Positions 3,504 through 60,395 of a stretch of 64,000 nucleotides of DNA are shown here, piece by piece. This DNA comes from Promethearchaeota archaeon Loki_b32 (GTDB lineage Archaea; Asgardarchaeota; Lokiarchaeia; Sigyniarchaeales; SOKP01), in contig NJBH01000005.1 of NCBI GenBank assembly GCA_005223125.1, positions 70,509 to 134,508 on the forward strand, read 5' to 3'. The position numbers and the translations under genes were made by a program. Numbering within the stretch: the first letter of the stretch is position 1; every line of letters starts with the position of its first letter. Below the pieces are notes generated by a model. The model did no database searches. It was not told where the DNA came from and saw nothing but the letters and a program-made list of their open reading frames with translations.

Positions 3504-4073
3504 TTATCCTATCCAATCTTTTCTATAAATAGCAAATTGATGCATATCAACATATTCTCCATCAACATATAGATGATCTTTAAAATGTGCTTCTTGTTTG
3601 AATCCTAATTTTTCGGCAGCTCGAAGTGATCTTTTGTTAGGAATGTAAACCCCCGCATAAATTTTATGGAAATTTAATTCTTTAAATCCATAATTTATTA
3701 ATAATTTTGCAGCTTCACCAACAATTCCCTTACCCCAATAATCTGGTTCTCCTATCGTCGCGGAAATAAAAGCATTACGATTTAGCCAATCGATACTAAA
3801 AAAGCCAATACTGCCTATTGGGCATTTATCTTCTTTATGGTAAATTGTAAAGAATATATATTCCTTAAGACCTCGTCCCGGAGATGGTTCAAACCATTTT
3901 TTTATCTGTTCGGGAGTGCTAGGCATTGTGTGTCTAGCATAATGGCGTACTTGTGGGTTATTATTCCATTTGCAATATAAAGGAATCCATTTAGAATTTT
4001 GAGCAACTAAATCTATCCTTTCTCCCTCAATAAAGGGAAAAACTTCAATTTTTTCTTGTTCTTCTTCTGGCAA
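3504..4073 (-). CDS. GNAT acetyltransferase, RimJ/RimL type (array copy 1, subfamily A)
   Basis: A 189-residue Acetyltransf_3/RimJ-RimL-like enzyme that would transfer acetyl from acetyl-CoA to an amine. Family landmarks are the opening FIEGERIDL strand, GEPDYWGKGIVGEAA (acetyl-CoA loop) and the C-terminal PNKRSLRAAEKLGF and YVDGEYVD strands. It is the 3'-most of five tandem paralogues and is closest to copies 3 and 5 (shared NKxSLRxAEK). No in-frame ATG opens the gene. TTG is used here, but an in-frame ATC-AAG-TTG six bases upstream resembles the ATA-AAA-TTG start of copy 3, so the N-terminus is uncertain. Substrate unknown. Confidence 0.85.
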   Translation of the reverse strand: MPEEEQEKIEVFPFIEGERIDLVAQNSKWIPLYCKWNNNPQVRHYARHTMPSTPEQIKKWFEPSPGRGLKEYIFFTIYHKEDKCPIGSIGFFSIDWLNRNAFISATIGEPDYWGKGIVGEAAKLLINYGFKELNFHKIYAGVYIPNKRSLRAAEKLGFKQEAHFKDHLYVDGEYVDMHQFAIYRKDWIG

Positions 4074-4210
4074 CTTGATACATCTAGGGTTTTTATGTAA
4101 AATATTAGAATTGCTATGTTTATTTAATTAAAATACAAGATTAAATTTTACTTTTTGTTCATGGTCGAGTTAATAATATGGCAAGAATAATAAAGAGAAT
4201 TTTATTGATC

Positions 4211-4780
4211 CTAGTCGATTTCTTTCTTTCTTTTCATCCAATCCTCCTTTAAAATCCCATAGGTTTTAACATTATAATATTTTCCATCAACATACATCTC
4301 ATCTTTTCGGATTCCATTAAACTTAAAACCTACTTTTTCTGCAACACTCCATGAGCCAATATTTTCAACAGCAGCTCCACCTTGCAATTTGTGAAGATTT
4401 AATTCGTTAAAAGCATATTCAACAAGCATTTCAGTAGTTTCAGTTGCGATATTTTGCCCCCAATATTCAGGTTCTCCAATAGAAAGAAAGGCATTTGCCC
4501 ATCCACTAACCCAATCTATCCATGCTAATCCACATGAACCAATTGGTTTATTATCTTTATTATGCCAAATCTCAAAAACTATAAAATTATGCACTCTTCC
4601 TTTTCGAGGTTCAAACCATCTCTTAATATCTTCAAGTCTTATAGGCATCTCCCATCGAGCAAACACACGCACTTTTGGATTATTCATCCACTTCGCATAC
4701 AAATCGATGTGCTCTGAATTTTGAACAGCCAAACAAATGGTCTCTCCCTCAATAAAAACTGGAACGTCTTTATCTTTCAT
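4211..4780 (-). CDS. GNAT acetyltransferase, RimJ/RimL type (array copy 2, subfamily B)
   Basis: A 189-residue RimJ/RimL-like acetyltransferase starting at an ATG. It is strikingly similar to copy 4: both carry GGAAVENIGSW, FKFNGIRKDEMYVDGKY and an ANAFL strand, which the A-type copies lack. The acetyl-CoA loop reads YWGQNIATE, with Asn where A-type copies 1 and 3 have Gly. Alternation with A-type neighbours suggests that a two-gene unit was duplicated. Target unknown; no ribosomal-protein gene is near that would argue for classical RimJ/RimL activity. Confidence 0.85.
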   Translation of the reverse strand: MKDKDVPVFIEGETICLAVQNSEHIDLYAKWMNNPKVRVFARWEMPIRLEDIKRWFEPRKGRVHNFIVFEIWHNKDNKPIGSCGLAWIDWVSGWANAFLSIGEPEYWGQNIATETTEMLVEYAFNELNLHKLQGGAAVENIGSWSVAEKVGFKFNGIRKDEMYVDGKYYNVKTYGILKEDWMKRKKEID

Positions 4781-4816
4781 TTAATTAATTAAAACCCCAT
4801 TATATAGATTATTTTA

Positions 4817-5395
4817 CTAAATTTTTTTAGAATTGAGCCAATCTTTTTTAAATATTGCAAGCTTCACTTCATCAACATACTCTCCTTCAATATATACCTG
4901 TTCTTTCAAGGTTGCTTCAAACTTTAAGCCAACCTTTTCCGCAGTCCTTAAAGATCTTTTATTTGGTGCATTTATACATGCATGAATCTTATGGAAATTT
5001 AGTTCTTCAAATCCATAATCCACTAATAATTTGGCAGCTTCTGGTCCTATACCTTGCCCCCAATATTCAGGTTCTCCAATACTCGTAAAAATATTTGCAT
5101 TTCGGTCTAACCAATTAATACTATCAAAGCCTGCTGTCCCAATAGGTTTTTTATCCTTTTTATGCCAGATTTCAAAAGTTACATCTCTTTTTCCACTTTC
5201 TTTCTGTTGCTCAAACCATTTTTTCACCTCTTCAAGATTCCACGGAAACATATTTCTAGCATATCGGCGTACTTCAGGATCATTACCCCACTTAGTATAC
5301 AGATTCACATGTTCTAAGTTAATTGGACCCAAATCAATAATTTCTCCTTCAATGAAAGGCATGACTTTTTTTGTTTCCTTATCTTCCAATTTTAT
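4817..5395 (-). CDS. GNAT acetyltransferase, RimJ/RimL type (array copy 3, subfamily A), probable AUA start
   Basis: A RimJ/RimL-like acetyltransferase of about 192 residues, with FIEGEIIDLG, GEPEYWGQGIGPEAA and NKRSLRTAEKVG. Standard start choices are TTG at 5389 or an internal ATG at 5362. The AAGGTGG Shine-Dalgarno (5401-5407) sits five bases before an in-frame ATA at 5393-5395, giving M-K-L-E-D-K. An upstream in-frame TAG prevents further extension. The N-terminus then parallels array copy 1 (I-K-L-P-E-E). The CDS coordinates assume AUA initiation; the TTG alternative shortens it by two residues. Confidence 0.82.
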   Translation of the reverse strand: MKLEDKETKKVMPFIEGEIIDLGPINLEHVNLYTKWGNDPEVRRYARNMFPWNLEEVKKWFEQQKESGKRDVTFEIWHKKDKKPIGTAGFDSINWLDRNANIFTSIGEPEYWGQGIGPEAAKLLVDYGFEELNFHKIHACINAPNKRSLRTAEKVGLKFEATLKEQVYIEGEYVDEVKLAIFKKDWLNSKKI

Positions 5396-5400
5396 CTATT

Positions 5401-5407
5401 CCACCTT
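5401..5407 (-). promoter_or_regulatory. Shine-Dalgarno AAGGTGG pointing at an ATA codon
   Basis: On the minus strand AAGGTGG is followed by AATAG and then ATA. The match to the archaeal anti-SD is good and the five-base spacing is normal, which favours the ATA at 5393-5395 over the TTG 11 bases away. Confidence 0.5.
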
Positions 5408-5438
5408 TTTACATTAAAATTCCATAAATTAATAAAAT

Positions 5439-6041
5439 TCACATAGAGTTTTTTCTTTTTAGCCAATCTTCCTTTAATAAGCTATGTGTCTTGACATCTA
5501 CATATTTTCCATCAACATACATCTCATCTTTTCGGATTCCATTAAACTTAAAACCCATTTTCTCAGCTACAGTCCAGGAACCAATATTCTCTACAGCAGC
5601 TCCCCCCTGTAATTTATTTAGATTCAATTCATTAAATGCATATTCAATAAGCAATTCAGTAGCTTCAGTGGCTATATTTTTATTCCAATATTCAGGTTCT
5701 CCAATGAAAAGAAATGCATTTGCCCACCCATTAATCCAATCTATATGTCCTAATCCTAAATTTCCAATAGCTTTTTTATCTTTCTTATGCCAAATATCTA
5801 AAGATATATGATCCTTGAATTCTTCAACTTTAGATTCAAACCGTTGCTTTTGATCTTCAAGGGTTCTTGGTACCACATTTCTGGCATATTTTCTTACACG
5901 AGGATGATTTTTCCAACGAACATATTGTTTAAGCAATTTAGAATTTCGCACGCATAGATCAATATTCTTCCCTTTAATAAAAGGAAAAGGTTCAATTTCT
6001 TCAGTTTCTGGATTTTCTTCTGATTTTTCTTCTTGTCCCAT
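5439..6041 (-). CDS. GNAT acetyltransferase, RimJ/RimL type (array copy 4, subfamily B)
   Basis: A 200-residue acetyltransferase, the longest of the five because of an acidic N-terminal extension (about 20 residues rich in Glu) before PFPFIKGKNIDL. It is the close twin of copy 2: ANAFLFIGEPEYW, GGAAVENIGSW and FNGIRKDEMYVDGKY. The acetyl-CoA loop YWNKNIATEA is further modified, lacking the Gly after Trp. It starts at ATG with an AGAGGT motif upstream. Its substrate is unknown. Confidence 0.85.
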   Translation of the reverse strand: MGQEEKSEENPETEEIEPFPFIKGKNIDLCVRNSKLLKQYVRWKNHPRVRKYARNVVPRTLEDQKQRFESKVEEFKDHISLDIWHKKDKKAIGNLGLGHIDWINGWANAFLFIGEPEYWNKNIATEATELLIEYAFNELNLNKLQGGAAVENIGSWTVAEKMGFKFNGIRKDEMYVDGKYVDVKTHSLLKEDWLKRKNSM

Positions 6042-6073
6042 GAATCAAACCTCTTCTTCAGGATTTATAATCT

Positions 6074-6637
6074 TCATTGTAATTTCATCCAATCTTCTTT
6101 AAAAATTGAATACTCTAAAGCATCAATGTGTTCACCATCAATGTAGACTTCTTGTTTAAGTGTTATTTCATGTGTAAGCCCGATTTTTTCTGCCACTCTT
6201 AAAGAAGCTTTATTTGGAGAAAACATTCTAGCGGTAATTTTATGTAAATTCAACTCTTTGAAACTATATTCTAAAACCAGTTTGCCTGCCTCAGTTCCGT
6301 TGTTTTGACCCCAATAATTCGGTTCGATAAGATAAAATATATGTGCATTACGAGTAAGCCATTGAATCCGAATAAGCCCAACAAATCCTATTGGTTTCTC
6401 ATCCTTTTTATGCCATATTTCAAAAAAAATTTCATTTTTTACAGGTTCTTCTTTTGGTTCAAATAATTTTTTAACTTCTTCAATAGTTTGAGGCATATTG
6501 TATCTGGCGTATTTTCGTAATTGTGGATCATTCATCCATTTAGTATAAAGATGAATGTGATCCATATTTACTGGACAAAGTGAAACGTTTTCTCCTTCTA
6601 TAAATGGAAAAACTTTATCTTCTTTAACTTCAGACAT
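6074..6637 (-). CDS. GNAT acetyltransferase, RimJ/RimL type (array copy 5, subfamily A)
   Basis: A 187-residue member and the first gene of the array in transcription direction. It keeps PFIEGENVSL, YTKWMNDPQLRKYAR and the A-type NKASLRVAEK helix. The loop YWGQNNGTEAG deviates from the Q-x-x-G-x-G/A acetyl-CoA signature. Gaps between the five genes are only 32-137 bases and all point the same way, so they are probably co-transcribed from a promoter near 6640-6750. Confidence 0.85.
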   Translation of the reverse strand: MSEVKEDKVFPFIEGENVSLCPVNMDHIHLYTKWMNDPQLRKYARYNMPQTIEEVKKLFEPKEEPVKNEIFFEIWHKKDEKPIGFVGLIRIQWLTRNAHIFYLIEPNYWGQNNGTEAGKLVLEYSFKELNLHKITARMFSPNKASLRVAEKIGLTHEITLKQEVYIDGEHIDALEYSIFKEDWMKLQ

Positions 6638-21676: not shown

Positions 21677-21970
21677 CTAAATTTTCTTACCACAAGTGGG
21701 ACATTCGGTGATATCTATATTTATAGTTGTCATACATGCTGGACAAACTCTTTTCTCTAACATTGTCTCGTTAACTTTTATTTGAGACTTATTTTTTTTC
21801 ATTCCTCGAACAATAAGAATTATGATTCCAATAATTATCATTAAAAAACCTATTAATGCAGGTGTTAGGCTCTGAAGACTAAAACTATATCCAAAAATCC
21901 CTCCTACTGCTAAAAACAATATTCCTGTACAAATTAGATAATATGGATTGGAATATTTATTGTATGATAT
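21677..21970 (-). CDS. Two-TM protein with C-terminal zinc ribbon, probable AUA start
   Basis: About 97 residues: two hydrophobic helices (LICTGILFLAVGGIFG and LIGFLMIIIGIIILIV), a basic stop-transfer segment and a zinc ribbon CPAC-x11-CPTC at the end. The only conventional start is a TTG at 21919 that would cut the first helix in half. AAGGTG at 21978-21983 instead precedes an in-frame ATA (21968-21970) by seven bases and an in-frame ATT by four; either restores the full first helix. It lies 70 bases upstream of the LRR gene on the same strand and may be co-transcribed. Function unknown. Confidence 0.7.
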   Translation of the reverse strand: MSYNKYSNPYYLICTGILFLAVGGIFGYSFSLQSLTPALIGFLMIIIGIIILIVRGMKKNKSQIKVNETMLEKRVCPACMTTINIDITECPTCGKKI

Positions 21971-33855: not shown

Positions 33856-34008
33856 AATTAATCATAACTTTCAAATGAATTGAAATTATTAGTTAAAATC
33901 TTCCTCTTGTTTTTAATTTTTAGTTGGAAAGTTTTTATAGGTGTGACATTCTAATTAACATGAACAAAAAATTTTATTATCTAAACAAAAAAAAATTCAA
34001 TTAAATTA

Positions 34009-34015
34009 AAGGTGG
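34009..34015 (+). promoter_or_regulatory. Shine-Dalgarno AAGGTGG pointing at an ATA codon (htpX)
   Basis: AAGGTGG, six bases, then ATA-GGA-TTA-AAA-TTA. This is the usual layout for strong starts in this DNA except that ATA stands where ATG is expected. Confidence 0.55.
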
Positions 34016-34021
34016 TAAATT

Positions 34022-35728
34022 ATAGGATTAAAATTAGCTTCGGGACTTGCTATAACATCCCTATTTGCATTGATTTATGCTGTCATTTTCGTGATAGGCG
34101 TTTGGTTTTTACCTTCGTCAATATTCGGTCTTCTAATCATGGTTGCTCTTACAATCGGTATGGTACTATTACAATATGGAATATCTCCATTAATCATCAA
34201 TTGGCTCTATAGAATAGATTGGATTCCTTACGAACAATTTGCGGCAGAATTCCCCCATTTAGCAGACTCTCTTGATAAAGTGGTAGCTTATAACCGTATA
34301 AAGATGCCACGACTAGGAATTATTAGGAATGATTTTAACCCTAATGCTTTCACTTTCGGATATACTAAAAATTCAGCAAGAGTTGTACTAACAGACGGAA
34401 TATTGAAATATTTAAACAAGAAAGAGCAAAATGCCGTATTTTCACATGAATTAGGACATGTTGTTCACTCTGATTTCATTTTAATGACTGTAGTTTTTGC
34501 AATTCCTTTATTGCTTTTAACAATAGCTAGATGGGCTTATTATGCTAGTTTATTTTCAAGAGGTAGAAGAAGTGATAGTGATGAGGCTTCTTATCTTCGA
34601 CTTGCGTTAATTGCGATAGCAGTATTATCTTATTTGACTTATTACTTAAGTTATTTTATCTCACTGATTATAAGCAGAATTAGGGAATATTACGCGGATG
34701 AGCATAGTGCTGAAGTTTTAGAGGATCCAAATGCATTATCGACGGGACTTGTTAAGATAGCTTACGGTTTATTAGTTGATGGTAATATTGAAGAAAGAAA
34801 AAAATCACGAGTGCGAGCACTTAGAGGAATGGGTATATTTGATCCTAGAGCTGCAAAGGGACTTGGTATCATAAGTGTTGGAACTACACAGACCTTCTCT
34901 ATGGAAGCGATACAAAAAGCTGCAGCCTGGGACTTATACAATCCTTGGGCTAAATATTATCAAGCTATGTCAACACATCCGTTACCAGCGAAAAGAATAA
35001 TGCGCTTAAATATGTTATGTGAAATTTACGGCATTCAACCAGAAATTGATTTTTCTGATGCGAAACGATTAAAAGAAGAACAAGCAGGAAAATCAATGTG
35101 GGATGAATTTCTGTGGGATCTTTTCATGAAAACACTTCCTACACTAGTTTTCATTGCTTTACTAGGAATAACAATTGTTTGGATCTTAGATCCATTCATA
35201 ACTGCATATAGTATATCGTTGTTCACTCCCAAATTTATGTTATTACTCTGGGCGGTTGGCTTTTATGTTATAGGCTTTATGTCGATATTAAAAACGAGAT
35301 ATATGTATAAAAGTGGTTTTGAAGATAAAACAGTATTAGACTTGGTTACTAATGTGAAAGTTTCTCCAATCAGAACAGTACCTGCCTTTTTGGAGGGAAA
35401 GATTGTTGGAAGAGGGATTCCAGGGTATTACTTTAGTGAGGATATGTATTTCCAAGATAATACTGGCTTGATGTATGTAGATTATAGGTTCGGAATTGGG
35501 CTTGTAGATCTTATATTCTCACTAAGAACTGTTAAGCGCTTAATGGGGCAAAGGGTGAGAATTAAAGGATGGTATAGAAGGGGTCCAAGTCCATATATTC
35601 AAGTAGATACAATTTGGTCTGAATCTGGAAAAAGATACAGAAATTATTCTAAAGCTTTCAGGTATGTCTGGGCTGTTTTAGCATTCATTCTAGGGATCGT
35701 GTGCATTTACTTTTGGTTCCAATTTTAA
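34022..35728 (+). CDS. htpX: HtpX-like M48 membrane metalloprotease, probable AUA start
   Basis: About 568 residues. N-terminal TM pair, then FSHELGHVVHSD (HExxH zinc site, His142 and His146), two more TM segments and REYYADEHSAE (third ligand). HPLPAKRIMRLN is the expected M48 C-terminal motif. A further 150 residues add TM segments and a beta-rich module (LEGKIVGRGIPGYYF, DNTGLMYVDYR). The conventional start (TTG 34070) deletes 16 residues of the first TM. AAGGTGG directs ATA at 34022, giving GLKLASGLAITSLFALIYA, which matches the usual HtpX N-terminus. It degrades damaged membrane proteins in known cases. Confidence 0.88.
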   Translation: MGLKLASGLAITSLFALIYAVIFVIGVWFLPSSIFGLLIMVALTIGMVLLQYGISPLIINWLYRIDWIPYEQFAAEFPHLADSLDKVVAYNRIKMPRLGIIRNDFNPNAFTFGYTKNSARVVLTDGILKYLNKKEQNAVFSHELGHVVHSDFILMTVVFAIPLLLLTIARWAYYASLFSRGRRSDSDEASYLRLALIAIAVLSYLTYYLSYFISLIISRIREYYADEHSAEVLEDPNALSTGLVKIAYGLLVDGNIEERKKSRVRALRGMGIFDPRAAKGLGIISVGTTQTFSMEAIQKAAAWDLYNPWAKYYQAMSTHPLPAKRIMRLNMLCEIYGIQPEIDFSDAKRLKEEQAGKSMWDEFLWDLFMKTLPTLVFIALLGITIVWILDPFITAYSISLFTPKFMLLLWAVGFYVIGFMSILKTRYMYKSGFEDKTVLDLVTNVKVSPIRTVPAFLEGKIVGRGIPGYYFSEDMYFQDNTGLMYVDYRFGIGLVDLIFSLRTVKRLMGQRVRIKGWYRRGPSPYIQVDTIWSESGKRYRNYSKAFRYVWAVLAFILGIVCIYFWFQF

Positions 35729-55744: not shown

Positions 55745-56380
55745 CTATTCTGATAAAGGATATTTTTTTAAGAAGCGAATAAAATAATATAATCCGATTA
55801 TTACAATTGCCCCTCCAGTAATAGCAAAAGAGAGAATAATATCCAGAGGAGAACTTACAATTGGATTAAGCATTTCAGTTAAGAATAACCCAATTCCTGC
55901 TAAAAAGGCATAAAAATACAATCGTGTAAATTCTAAATAATAAGGTACAACACAAAACGGAAGAGTAAATGCGCCCAATCCTAATACTAAAGTTAACATG
56001 AGAGGTTGGATTTGAATGTTTCTAAGTACGCCCGTAAGTGGTATAAATAGTAAAATTATATTTACTAAAAACATAAAAAGCAAAAAAATTTTTAATTTTA
56101 GCTGTTTAACCTTTCTTTTAGGGCCAAATTTAACAAAACCCATGCGCGGGATAGTAATAAACTTCTTACCTAAATAAAATATCAAGAATGCAATTATATT
56201 CATTATTAACACTGGAATAATTGTATCCCAGCCTTCAGGTAAATTAAGTATTGTCCCAATAAATGTACTAAGACCTATACTTAAAATAATCAAGCCCATA
56301 AACAAATCCCATATCCCGTCATCAAATATTGACCTATACGCTTTTCTCTCAAGTGCTTTTAATTCATCATCTTCAGACAT
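55745..56380 (-). CDS. Six-TM membrane protein (paralogue 3 of 3)
   Basis: A 211-residue protein with six hydrophobic helices. It shares with the two upstream genes an N-terminal amphipathic motif (YRSIFDDGIWDLFMG), a basic loop after TM2 (KKFITIPRMGFVKFG) and a C-terminal RFLKKYPLSE. GGAGGTGA precedes the ATG. It lies four bases after the second paralogue. No family name is recognised; transport or assembly with the ABC exporter is inferred. Confidence 0.78.
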   Translation of the reverse strand: MSEDDELKALERKAYRSIFDDGIWDLFMGLIILSIGLSTFIGTILNLPEGWDTIIPVLIMNIIAFLIFYLGKKFITIPRMGFVKFGPKRKVKQLKLKIFLLFMFLVNIILLFIPLTGVLRNIQIQPLMLTLVLGLGAFTLPFCVVPYYLEFTRLYFYAFLAGIGLFLTEMLNPIVSSPLDIILSFAITGGAIVIIGLYYFIRFLKKYPLSE

Positions 56381-56383
56381 TAA

Positions 56384-57022
56384 TTAACTCACCTCCTCCT
56401 TCTTTAATGGATACTTTTTAAGAAATTTAATAAAAATGACCAATCCTATAAAAAAAATAATACCTCCTATAATCCCATATGATAAAAGCCATCTAATTCT
56501 ATAATCTATGGGATCATATAATAGCTCGTTGATGAATATAGCCAACCATATAAGCATTCCAATAAAATATAATCGTGGATATTTCATTAAATATGCTATA
56601 ATAGCGAAAATGGGTATAAAAAATAAACCTATCATTAATATAAACATCATTCCTTCTACGTGTATTCCACGACCAATTCCAATAACTAATAGGATAACAA
56701 ATGTTAAATGGATTACAAATTGAATAAAAGTAACAATGAATAACTTCTTTCTCATTGATTTTAAGGATGGACCAGGTTTAGCAATTCCTGTTCTAGGCTG
56801 AATGACGTATTTGATAATAATAAAAAGTAATAAATCTGCAATTATAACAAGAATTAATGGCCATAAAAAATATTTATGTGGTGAAGGTAGACTCTCACGG
56901 AAAAAAGGACCAAACGCCATTCCCGTTACAACAAAACCAATAAACATATCAAAAAAACCATGTTGGTGAGCTGATTTGAGAATGTTTTTCTCAATAACTT
57001 TCAAATCAATATTCTCTGCCAT
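56384..57022 (-). CDS. Six-TM membrane protein (paralogue 2 of 3)
   Basis: A 212-residue protein of the same plan: AENIDLKVIEKNIL at the N-terminus, HGFFDMFIGFV in the first helix, a basic loop with VIQPRTGIAKPG and the end KFLKKYPLKKEE. GAGGAGATGA lies before the ATG. Gap to its neighbours is two to three bases, so co-translation is likely. Its N-terminus is the reference that sets the unusual start of paralogue 1. Confidence 0.78.
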   Translation of the reverse strand: MAENIDLKVIEKNILKSAHQHGFFDMFIGFVVTGMAFGPFFRESLPSPHKYFLWPLILVIIADLLLFIIIKYVIQPRTGIAKPGPSLKSMRKKLFIVTFIQFVIHLTFVILLVIGIGRGIHVEGMMFILMIGLFFIPIFAIIAYLMKYPRLYFIGMLIWLAIFINELLYDPIDYRIRWLLSYGIIGGIIFFIGLVIFIKFLKKYPLKKEEVS

Positions 57023-57024
57023 TT

Positions 57025-57663
57025 TTAAGTCATCTCCTCTTTAGATAATGGGTATTTCCGAATGAATTTAATTAAAGATATAATCCCCATAGCTATTATT
57101 GCGCCACTTACAATGCTAAATACTATTAAAGTATCGAAAGGTTCAGGTATAAAAATTGAGAATAGATCTGATAAAAAGAAACTCAATCCCACCAGCAAGC
57201 CTATAAAGTAAAAACGGGAATATTGTATGAAATAAGCGGCAAAACATATAGGAGCTGTTATAAAGAGTAATCCAAGAATTAATCCTTCTAAATATCCAGG
57301 AAAATCCAAACTTAATTCAGGGTTAATAAACCGGATTAAAAAGAGGATTAAAAGAATAATAAAATTTATGGATAACATAATTAATGTCTTTAATTTACGT
57401 CCTTTTCGTTTCAATCCAAATTTTACTACACCTAACCTAGGTTGAGTAATAAATTTTTTTGTAGTTAAAAAAAAAGCTAACCCAATTCCAATAAAAATAA
57501 ATGGTATAAATTTATCGAAAGGATTAGGCACCACAGGACTAAGGGTCATACCCATACCAATACCTAAAACTAATATACCAAAATAAATATCCAAAATTCC
57601 ATCTTCAAAAGTAGATCTCCATGATTTTTTCTCGATTTCCTTTAAATCAATATTTTCTGTTAT
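57025..57663 (-). CDS. Six-TM membrane protein (paralogue 1 of 3), probable AUA start
   Basis: About 212 residues, six TM helices, with RSTFEDGILDIYFG, KKFITQPRLGVVKFG and KFIRKYPLSKEE. A GTG at 57672 is the nearest standard start but is itself part of the SD. AAGGTGA (57669-57675) is followed by five bases and ATA. Reading from ATA the protein begins (M)TENIDLKEIEKK, aligning with MAENIDLKVIEKN of paralogue 2. Initiation at AUA is therefore the best fit. Confidence 0.78.
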   Translation of the reverse strand: MTENIDLKEIEKKSWRSTFEDGILDIYFGILVLGIGMGMTLSPVVPNPFDKFIPFIFIGIGLAFFLTTKKFITQPRLGVVKFGLKRKGRKLKTLIMLSINFIILLILFLIRFINPELSLDFPGYLEGLILGLLFITAPICFAAYFIQYSRFYFIGLLVGLSFFLSDLFSIFIPEPFDTLIVFSIVSGAIIAMGIISLIKFIRKYPLSKEEMT

Positions 57664-57668
57664 TTTTT

Positions 57669-57675
57669 TCACCTT
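57669..57675 (-). promoter_or_regulatory. Shine-Dalgarno AAGGTGA pointing at an ATA codon
   Basis: Minus strand AAGGTGA-AAAAA-ATA-ACA-GAA-AAT. The alternative GTG would lie inside the SD itself, which makes it a poor initiation codon. Confidence 0.55.
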
Positions 57676-57874: not shown

Positions 57875-59554
57875 TTACTCCAGTTTATTCAATTTTTTCA
57901 TGCCAAAATATAGGATTGGAAGACTAACTCCAATGATGTAAAGAAATAAAGGAATTTGTAAAACTAATCTCAGTAATTCAATACTCCTTGGTCTAAAGAA
58001 CACCAATAATCCTATTGGCAAAAACAGAAGTGGTTGCAGTAGTAACATAGAGATCATAGCATTTCCTTTCATGCTTGAGTCTTTCTCACCAAAAGCAGGA
58101 GAAATACATTGAAGCCCCATAGCTTGACACATTGATATCTGTGCAAATAATAGAAATTCGATAAAGAAAATCACCGTATTTAGAAGATCAATATTCGAGA
58201 ATATTGTAAGCATTGTGGTTATGAAAATTGTTAAGAAAACATTAAGTATTAACATCATTAGCAAATAAGAATATACAATTGCTTTTATTCCCCTTGGAGA
58301 TCGCTTATAGACCCATATTAGATCCTTTGAATCAACAAATGCCAGATGTCCTATAATTATACTTCCAATTCCACCCCCCATAGCGATTAGTATAGTGGAA
58401 CTGAAGACTGTCATAAATGCATCATCATTCATTCTTGAAATAAACCAACTCATAAACCCTAAAAGCCCTACTACATAGGCAACTCTGGCAATATTCGCCT
58501 TTTTTCTGAAAAATCTCTTTAGTTGCAGAACTATTAAGCCACCCCACTTACGACCGGAAATTTTTCTTACAAGCACATAAAATAGATTTTCATGCTCGAT
58601 GATCGTAACACTGCTCTTTTCAATGCCTCCTTCTAAAGTATAAAACGATTCAGCTTTTTTATATGAAACATATAAAGTAATAATTGGGATACCAACGGCT
58701 AATAGAACACTTATCCATATATTTAGAATGAATGTATTGAGTAAAACTGGATCTATAGAGTATAATATGATATTTGAAAACCATAGAGATGGATAAAATG
58801 CCAACCAGTTTTTTAGTTCAGGGTGTTCCAATAGAAAATTAAGGAAAAACATTACGGCATACATAATAACAACCAAAATAATTGTAAATACCCATATCAA
58901 AGTCTTTCCTAAATCCCTTGCTTTTTCATTTTTTGAAATTTTATGTTCAAACCAACTTGCGATAATTGATCCTATTAGATTGGCAAAGTATACATGACCA
59001 AAAACTGTCCCATATATTACGACATACTGAATTAAAGTCAATTCAATGATGGGATTTATCAATCCTACGATAATCGGAGCAAGTATTAATATTGCAATAG
59101 AATATATTGGAGATTTGCCCAAGAATTCCCCTAAAAAGATATCATTTTCCTTAACTGGTGTTGCCAGCAAAGTTTCTTTGGTTGCACCTTCGTTTTCCTT
59201 ATAAATATTGTTTAATGGGTATATTACAAGCACTAAAAACAACATCATCATGATAGATTCGATGGTAATTGCAACCACGGGTTTGAATACATCGGAGAAT
59301 TGAACTGCCAAAGTTGGTATAAACAAATCGAATAGATAGGGAGCGATAATCACCGCCCATATTACTAAAAGCGAATACAATGCTATAAAAAATAATCTAC
59401 GATGATTTCGAAAACTACTTGTTCTTATCCTTATCTCATTCCTTGCTATTATTTTCCATGAACTCCTTTTTTGATGTGCTAGATTAAGTGAAAATTTTCC
59501 CTTAATATTATCTGTGGATGAATCGATTACCTCCTCTTCTGTTAGAACCGTCAT
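57875..59554 (-). CDS. ABC-2-type exporter permease
   Basis: A 559-residue membrane protein with roughly 12 hydrophobic helices in two halves (about 50-320 and 340-559). The cytoplasmic N-terminus contains KIIARNEIRIRTSSFRNHR, and NNIYKENEGATKETLLATPV is the ABC-2-type coupling motif. It pairs with the ATPase encoded eight bases upstream. A T10 tract lies about 30 bases after its stop, which might partially terminate before the micropeptide. Substrate unknown. Confidence 0.85.
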   Translation of the reverse strand: MTVLTEEEVIDSSTDNIKGKFSLNLAHQKRSSWKIIARNEIRIRTSSFRNHRRLFFIALYSLLVIWAVIIAPYLFDLFIPTLAVQFSDVFKPVVAITIESIMMMLFLVLVIYPLNNIYKENEGATKETLLATPVKENDIFLGEFLGKSPIYSIAILILAPIIVGLINPIIELTLIQYVVIYGTVFGHVYFANLIGSIIASWFEHKISKNEKARDLGKTLIWVFTIILVVIMYAVMFFLNFLLEHPELKNWLAFYPSLWFSNIILYSIDPVLLNTFILNIWISVLLAVGIPIITLYVSYKKAESFYTLEGGIEKSSVTIIEHENLFYVLVRKISGRKWGGLIVLQLKRFFRKKANIARVAYVVGLLGFMSWFISRMNDDAFMTVFSSTILIAMGGGIGSIIIGHLAFVDSKDLIWVYKRSPRGIKAIVYSYLLMMLILNVFLTIFITTMLTIFSNIDLLNTVIFFIEFLLFAQISMCQAMGLQCISPAFGEKDSSMKGNAMISMLLLQPLLFLPIGLLVFFRPRSIELLRLVLQIPLFLYIIGVSLPILYFGMKKLNKLE

Positions 59555-59561
59555 TTATAAT

Positions 59562-60395
59562 CTACCTCGATTTTTTGCTTTTCTTTTTCTTTTTTTTACT
59601 ATTATTAGATTCATGATTAATAGAATTCTCCTCTCTCCAACCAAGTAGATCATCTATATGAGAAGCCCCAGTAATTTTTAAGTATGCTTCCTCTAAAATT
59701 TCAGCACCAACAGAGTCAATTATTTCTTTTGGACTACCTTCAATTTTTAGCTGCCCATCTATAATTAACCCAATTACGTCACATAATTCTTCAGCTGTAT
59801 CAAGAAGATGGGTACAAATAAAGATTGTCTTATCTGCTTTCTTAGCTAGTTGAGATATTAAATCTTTTACCATTCTAGCAGCTGCAGGATCTAAATTCGA
59901 TGTAGGCTCATCCAAAAATAATATTTCAGGATCTTGAATCAATGCCGCACATAAACAGACTTTTTGCTTCATTCCTCTTGAATAGCTCTCCAAAAGATCG
60001 TTTTCTCGACCTACCAAATTGAATAACTCTATCAGTTCATTAATTCTGACGGAAATTACATCTTTTTGCAAAAAATATAATTCTCCAATAAACTCTAAGA
60101 ATTCTTTTGCGGTAAGTTTAGAGTATAGTCCAGGAGATTCTGGTAAAAAACCACATATCATTTTCACTTTCTTACTTTCAGAAACAATATCATACCCGCC
60201 GACTGATGCATTTCCTGAAGTCTTAGAGATAATTGCATTAAGCATTCTTACAGTTGTAGTTTTTCCAGCTCCATTTGGTCCCAATAAACCATATGTTTTT
60301 CCATAAGGAATATTTAAAGTTAATTTGTCGACTGCAAGAACAGTACCAAAATTTTTAGAAAGATTCTGAGTTCTAATTGCGTATGCTTTACTCAT
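59562..60395 (-). CDS. ABC transporter ATP-binding protein with Lys-rich tail
   Basis: A 277-residue ATPase of the export type. Walker A GPNGAGKTTT, a degenerate signature SYSRGMKQK, Walker B ILFLDEP and the switch His in ICTHLLD are present. The last 25 residues (after GWREENS) are mostly Lys/Ser (KKKKKKSKKSR), an unusual basic tail. It powers the adjacent permease. Start ATG after AGGTAAAAAAAG. It lies 56 bases after the small TM protein. Confidence 0.92.
   Translation of the reverse strand: MSKAYAIRTQNLSKNFGTVLAVDKLTLNIPYGKTYGLLGPNGAGKTTTVRMLNAIISKTSGNASVGGYDIVSESKKVKMICGFLPESPGLYSKLTAKEFLEFIGELYFLQKDVISVRINELIELFNLVGRENDLLESYSRGMKQKVCLCAALIQDPEILFLDEPTSNLDPAAARMVKDLISQLAKKADKTIFICTHLLDTAEELCDVIGLIIDGQLKIEGSPKEIIDSVGAEILEEAYLKITGASHIDDLLGWREENSINHESNNSKKKKKKSKKSR

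Follow-up and report, generated by a model that had tools for sequence, protein, structure and literature searches.

The 64-kb window analysed here (the whole stretch of 64,000 nucleotides) comes from a Lokiarchaeon, an Asgard archaeon and kin of the ancestor of eukaryotes. A membrane-protein gene that belongs to no Pfam family (57025..57663) lies on its minus strand. It is the first of three tandem paralogues (55745-57663, minus strand), which adjoin an ABC transporter (57875-60395), an arrangement retained in relatives. Read along the minus strand, a Shine-Dalgarno (SD)-like AAGGTGA (57675-57669) is followed by AAAAA (57668-57664), by ATA (57663-57661), and then by ACA GAA AAT ATT, which is the layout described in an earlier sequence-only reading. 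That reading had also placed the sole standard start inside the SD, and the listing of the frame upstream of the ATA confirmed it: GTG 57672-57670 is the only ATG, GTG, or TTG in frame between the upstream TAA and ATA 57663, and the ORF lister puts the start of the gene there. The downstream paralogue begins MAENIDLK at ATG 57022, and it was from the paralogue alignment that initiation at ATA 57663 had been proposed.

Same-genus orthologues of the membrane-protein gene were recovered in a search of 39 genomes, and they agree with this proposal. The comparison of ATA versus ATG in relatives, which had been suggested as a check, showed that ATA is kept at the start codon in all of the orthologues with at least 67% identity (10/10, own genome counted), each with a conserved SD of the form A/GAGGTGA or AAGGTGG, while ATG occupies the aligned codon in two more distant orthologues (G006 and G016) and in most paralogue copies. 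If the gene instead started at GTG 57672, the ATA would be an ordinary isoleucine codon (MKKITENIDLK), and this genome and several orthologues do have the GTG in frame. However, G013, G018, and G007 retain the ATA but have the GTG of the SD out of frame, at a distance of 10 nt, which excludes it as the start there. No SD is present upstream of the GTG, and four further genes treated below (M48, DUF134, aIF1, and uL16) have no comparable GTG, which makes a GTG start very improbable.

The second case in the window is an HtpX-like M48 peptidase gene on the plus strand (34022..35728), recognized by PF01435 and HtpX models. Its SD-like element AAAGGTGG (34008..34015) precedes ATA 34022..34024, the start codon suggested by orthologue comparison, and AGGTGR is kept in 15 congeneric orthologues. 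The frame opens with TAA ATT ATA GGA, and its next standard start, TTG 34070, is located within the N-terminal hydrophobic stretch. Among the 15 congeneric genomes, the start codon is ATA in 13 and ATC in two, each with an SD and with an in-frame stop 2-5 codons upstream. ATA is also found in G022, from another genus, and ATG stands at this codon in seven genomes from other genera. The same layout had been claimed for this site from the letters, and the congeneric ATA/ATC, the stop just upstream, and the ATG in most other genera bear it out. Judged by sequence comparison, both the membrane-protein gene and the M48 gene very probably begin at ATA.

The two other sites named in the sequence-only reading had different outcomes. 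ATA 5395 had been given as the start of a GNAT gene on the minus strand, which proved wrong. Orthologues have ATG in place of TTG 5389 (e.g., ATA AAA ATG), with ATG or TTG at the aligned codon, and the gene therefore starts at this TTG (5387..5389). About five GNAT acetyltransferase paralogues stand in tandem at 3504-6637 (minus strand); nine homologues are present in the genome, and similar arrays occur in relatives. The site at 21970 belongs to a small zinc-ribbon-like ORF (21677..21970, minus strand) with an SD-like AAGGTG upstream and a possible ATA (21970-21968) or ATT start; the search of relatives returned only weak matches and no close orthologue.

Orthologue support adds four families to the two in the window, namely uL16 (ATC), DUF134 (ATA), an aminotransferase (ATT), and aIF1. 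The start of uL16/L10e is ATC in five species, with ATG, GTG, or TTG at the aligned codon elsewhere in the family; that of DUF134 is ATA in nine and ATG in eight. The aminotransferase has ATT in most genomes, ATG in several, ATC in G013 and G020, and ATA in G023 and G024, and in some of its orthologues the SD contains an in-frame GTG, located three codons upstream. For M48, DUF134, uL16, and aIF1, the AUH codon (third base A, U, or C) stands at SD spacing without a usable ATG, GTG, or TTG in most genomes. All six AUH families have AUG at the aligned codon in orthologues at some distance, and such switches between AUH and AUG at a single position mark this position as the start. Comparison of the aligned sequences thus shows a codon that holds the start position, is conserved, and interchanges with AUG between relatives, and we consider it highly likely that these genes of Lokiarchaeota start at their AUH codons. 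Since every genome used is a metagenome-assembled genome (MAG), sequencing errors, decayed starts, or pseudogenes might be suspected. The MAG origin is offset by the agreement of independent assemblies of many species on the same codon, which also upholds the earlier judgement that a point error is unlikely, and the proteins are full-length and conserved; the probability of such an artefact is practically negligible.

A genome-wide count of SD-spaced codons with shuffled controls had also been proposed. The scan covered 1.54 Mb of the 4.13 Mb genome, sampled as stretches, in which 1,409 coding frames were called with our own simple hexamer model. A codon was scored if the upstream stop was at most 10 codons away and the first ATG, GTG, or TTG followed no sooner than 12 codons later, with coding signal between; an SD match was the selection criterion, and the counts thus cover SD-led AUH starts. 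An SD match in register accompanied 119 of the scored codons; ATT, ATA, and ATC together made up 41 of these, where codon frequencies predict about 18 (P = 2e-8). ATT was the commonest non-canonical start (26 observed versus 9.3 expected), ATC was found four times (2.7 expected), and the excess of ATA alone was modest (11 versus 5.9, P = 0.03). Out-of-frame controls in the same scan gave no AUH excess, and shuffled SD motifs in the first 1.2 Mb yielded a mean of 5.1 sites versus 26 for the real motif. A plain count of SD plus codon, with a standard start allowed nearby, gave only a small ATA excess and is left out as proof. When 101 genes were set against as many as four relatives, the clear cases to emerge were the two in the window.

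The claim that this lineage initiates at AUA in SD-led genes therefore stands for the ATA starts at 57663 and 34022, but an AUA-only rule is too narrow: AUU is the commonest and AUC is present, so the set is better described as AUH. Altogether, 34 genes carry an SD-led AUH site in the 1.54 Mb, some of them by chance, and AUA/AUU/AUC would accordingly serve as genuine initiation codons in about 1-2% of Lokiarchaeota genes, a rough estimate. Elsewhere in this genome, a small ORF on the minus strand (G000:C37:19270-19503) has a strong SD (AGAGGTGATTAAAT) immediately 5' of a CTG, which is a possible CTG start.

The decoding of AUA was examined through internal codons and tRNAs. Internal AUA is read as isoleucine, aligning mostly with AUA, AUU, or AUC and with ATG in 33 of 1432 pairs (2.3%); AUA as a methionine codon was rejected on this alignment. 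An initiator-like tRNA at C48:102855 contains GGGCTCATAA and an apparent intron, which together give the anticodon CAU and make it the candidate initiator, and the partial tRNA survey found no initiator tRNA with another anticodon. ARAGORN does call a tRNA-Ile(UAU)-like gene of unclear fold on L015, which would fit a reassignment of AUA to methionine or its reading by an initiator with another anticodon; against the rarity of ATG opposite internal AUA and the CAT of the initiator-like tRNA, and with the AUU and AUC starts left unexplained, there is only a very small chance that such a change has occurred. An elongator-Met-like tRNA of 138 nt at L018 1501-1638 apparently contains more than a single intron, and at L405 ARAGORN misses an initiator-like tRNA that has an intron. 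With internal AUA read as isoleucine and CAU as the initiator anticodon, the normal initiator likely accepts a third-base mismatch with assistance from the SD. In the most likely mechanism, the SD, a few bases 5' of the AUA, AUU, or AUC, would pair and park the 30S subunit, the ordinary initiator tRNA (CAU) would tolerate the mismatch at the third base, and Met-tRNAi would initiate at the AUH codon.

The most informative case is aIF1. The SUI1 gene of this genome matches PF01253, and its closest solved structure is aIF1 (4mo0/5jb3). The gene (locus L191, G000:C48:127286-127600) lies outside the 64-kb window and has an ATT start; a stop is located three codons 5' of it, and no standard start follows until 58 codons further on. 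Across related genomes, most of the order starts aIF1 with ATT, ATC, or ATA; ATG occurs in G027, and TTG in four genomes that belong to a single family. A search of that family for further aIF1 genes gave no additional genomes. One relative has a second aIF1 copy with 61% identity (G013:C101:70373-70684). The start is likewise ATT, ATC, or ATA in about 50 Lokiarchaeota records (group assigned by the named collection; one record masked), and this codon is the sole possible start in most of them, with an in-frame GTG upstream in six (L289, L293, L294, L297, L298, and L304). ATG is found near the same position in Hermodarchaeota, Bathyarchaeota, Thermoplasmata, and others, and TTG in one Helarchaeote.

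Among the 38 aIF1 records with more than 75% identity, 37 have ATT, one has ATC, and none has ATG, and a conserved leader with AAAGGTTGTGA precedes the start in nearly all. The leader at L191, AAAGGTTGTGAWAAGAGAGT, is strongly conserved and differs from the usual SD by two middle bases. ATT occupies the start in 43 of 44 rows, a few of which represent duplicate genomes, and is more fixed than any of eight internal isoleucine columns, in which the commonest codon has a mean share of 0.61. A GTG in another frame of the leader opens a short frame (GTG ATA AGA GAG TAT TAA) that ends at the ATT in many species, as if aIF1 might be reached by programmed frameshifting. This short frame is not conserved, with an early stop in L290, a different end codon in L291, and no stop there in L264, and the frameshift was ruled out on these grounds as extremely unlikely.

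Previous studies reported a destabilising effect of aIF1 on non-AUG complexes in S. solfataricus (PMC6237735) and found that bacterial IF3 limits its own synthesis via the ATT start of infC, which is AUC in Streptomyces (PMC5472188), and, in work cited in PMC6237735, that eIF1 limits its own synthesis via an AUG in poor context. Given this role of aIF1 and the self-limitation of IF3 and eIF1, an AUU-started aIF1 would have the wiring of a negative feedback, and since its start is fixed as AUU, AUC, or AUA in most genomes, aIF1 probably limits its own synthesis in an infC/IF3-like manner, a reading by analogy that we favour slightly. As a rejecter of non-AUG complexes, aIF1 would set the efficiency of AUH initiation and may tune other AUH genes. 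The fuller proposal, that Lokiarchaeota control aIF1 via its own AUU start, convergent with infC/IF3 and with a logic like that of eIF1, and that the aIF1 level sets the output of the conserved AUA/AUU/AUC-started genes including uL16, has in our view an even chance of being right.

A somewhat less probable alternative is that the AUH starts are real but just tolerated, arising without any regulatory loop from AT-rich drift and a relaxation of start selection. The alternation of AUH and AUG in uL16, DUF134, and the aminotransferase fits tolerance, as does the GC content of the genome (30%). Unlike uL16 or DUF134, however, aIF1 does not return to ATG within the group of 38 closer records, its AUU is more fixed than the internal isoleucine codons, and the factor is known to discriminate against such codons (PMC6237735), all of which argue against mere tolerance.

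The arrangement proposed for Lokiarchaeota resembles bacterial infC in that a factor for start-codon fidelity is itself encoded by a gene with a conserved non-canonical start, AUU. It is not a member of that system: aIF1 is archaeal and belongs to the SUI1/eIF1 family, with no homology to IF3, and its feedback is deduced here. With the autoregulation of eukaryotic eIF1 it has in common a homologous factor of the SUI1 family and a weak start on its own message, but the weak start of aIF1 is ATT, ATC, or ATA with an SD-like element rather than an AUG in poor context. Further genes with non-canonical starts under a fidelity factor recall Streptomyces sigR, whose GTC start is repressed by IF3 (PMC5472188); the codon and the factor differ, and regulation was shown for sigR, whereas in Lokiarchaeota it is presumed. 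The SD element and spacing resemble archaeal SD-led initiation at AUG, GUG, and UUG, but the start codon lies outside this set, AUG, GUG, and UUG being the only starts named in the parts of an archaeal review that we consulted (PMC7531240). A survey of 36 prokaryotic genome triplets found one AUG-to-AUU switch among 61,358 ancestral AUG starts (PMC5622118), and a 2026 review of Asgard archaea describes SDs as rare in Lokiarchaea, with such starts unmentioned in the sections consulted (PMC12993045). The literature searched, which included no preprints and few subscription sources so that earlier notice is possible, contained no AUU-started aIF1 and no non-canonical Asgard starts.

Several gene families in one archaeal lineage thus have conserved AUA/AUU/AUC starts, for which the literature searched offered no precedent. 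AUH genes, those for aIF1 and a ribosomal protein among them, would be shortened or missed by standard gene callers. The fixed AUU of aIF1 also poses the question whether regulation of e/aIF1 through a weak start, as in bacteria (IF3) and eukaryotes (eIF1), was already present in the archaeal relatives of eukaryotes.
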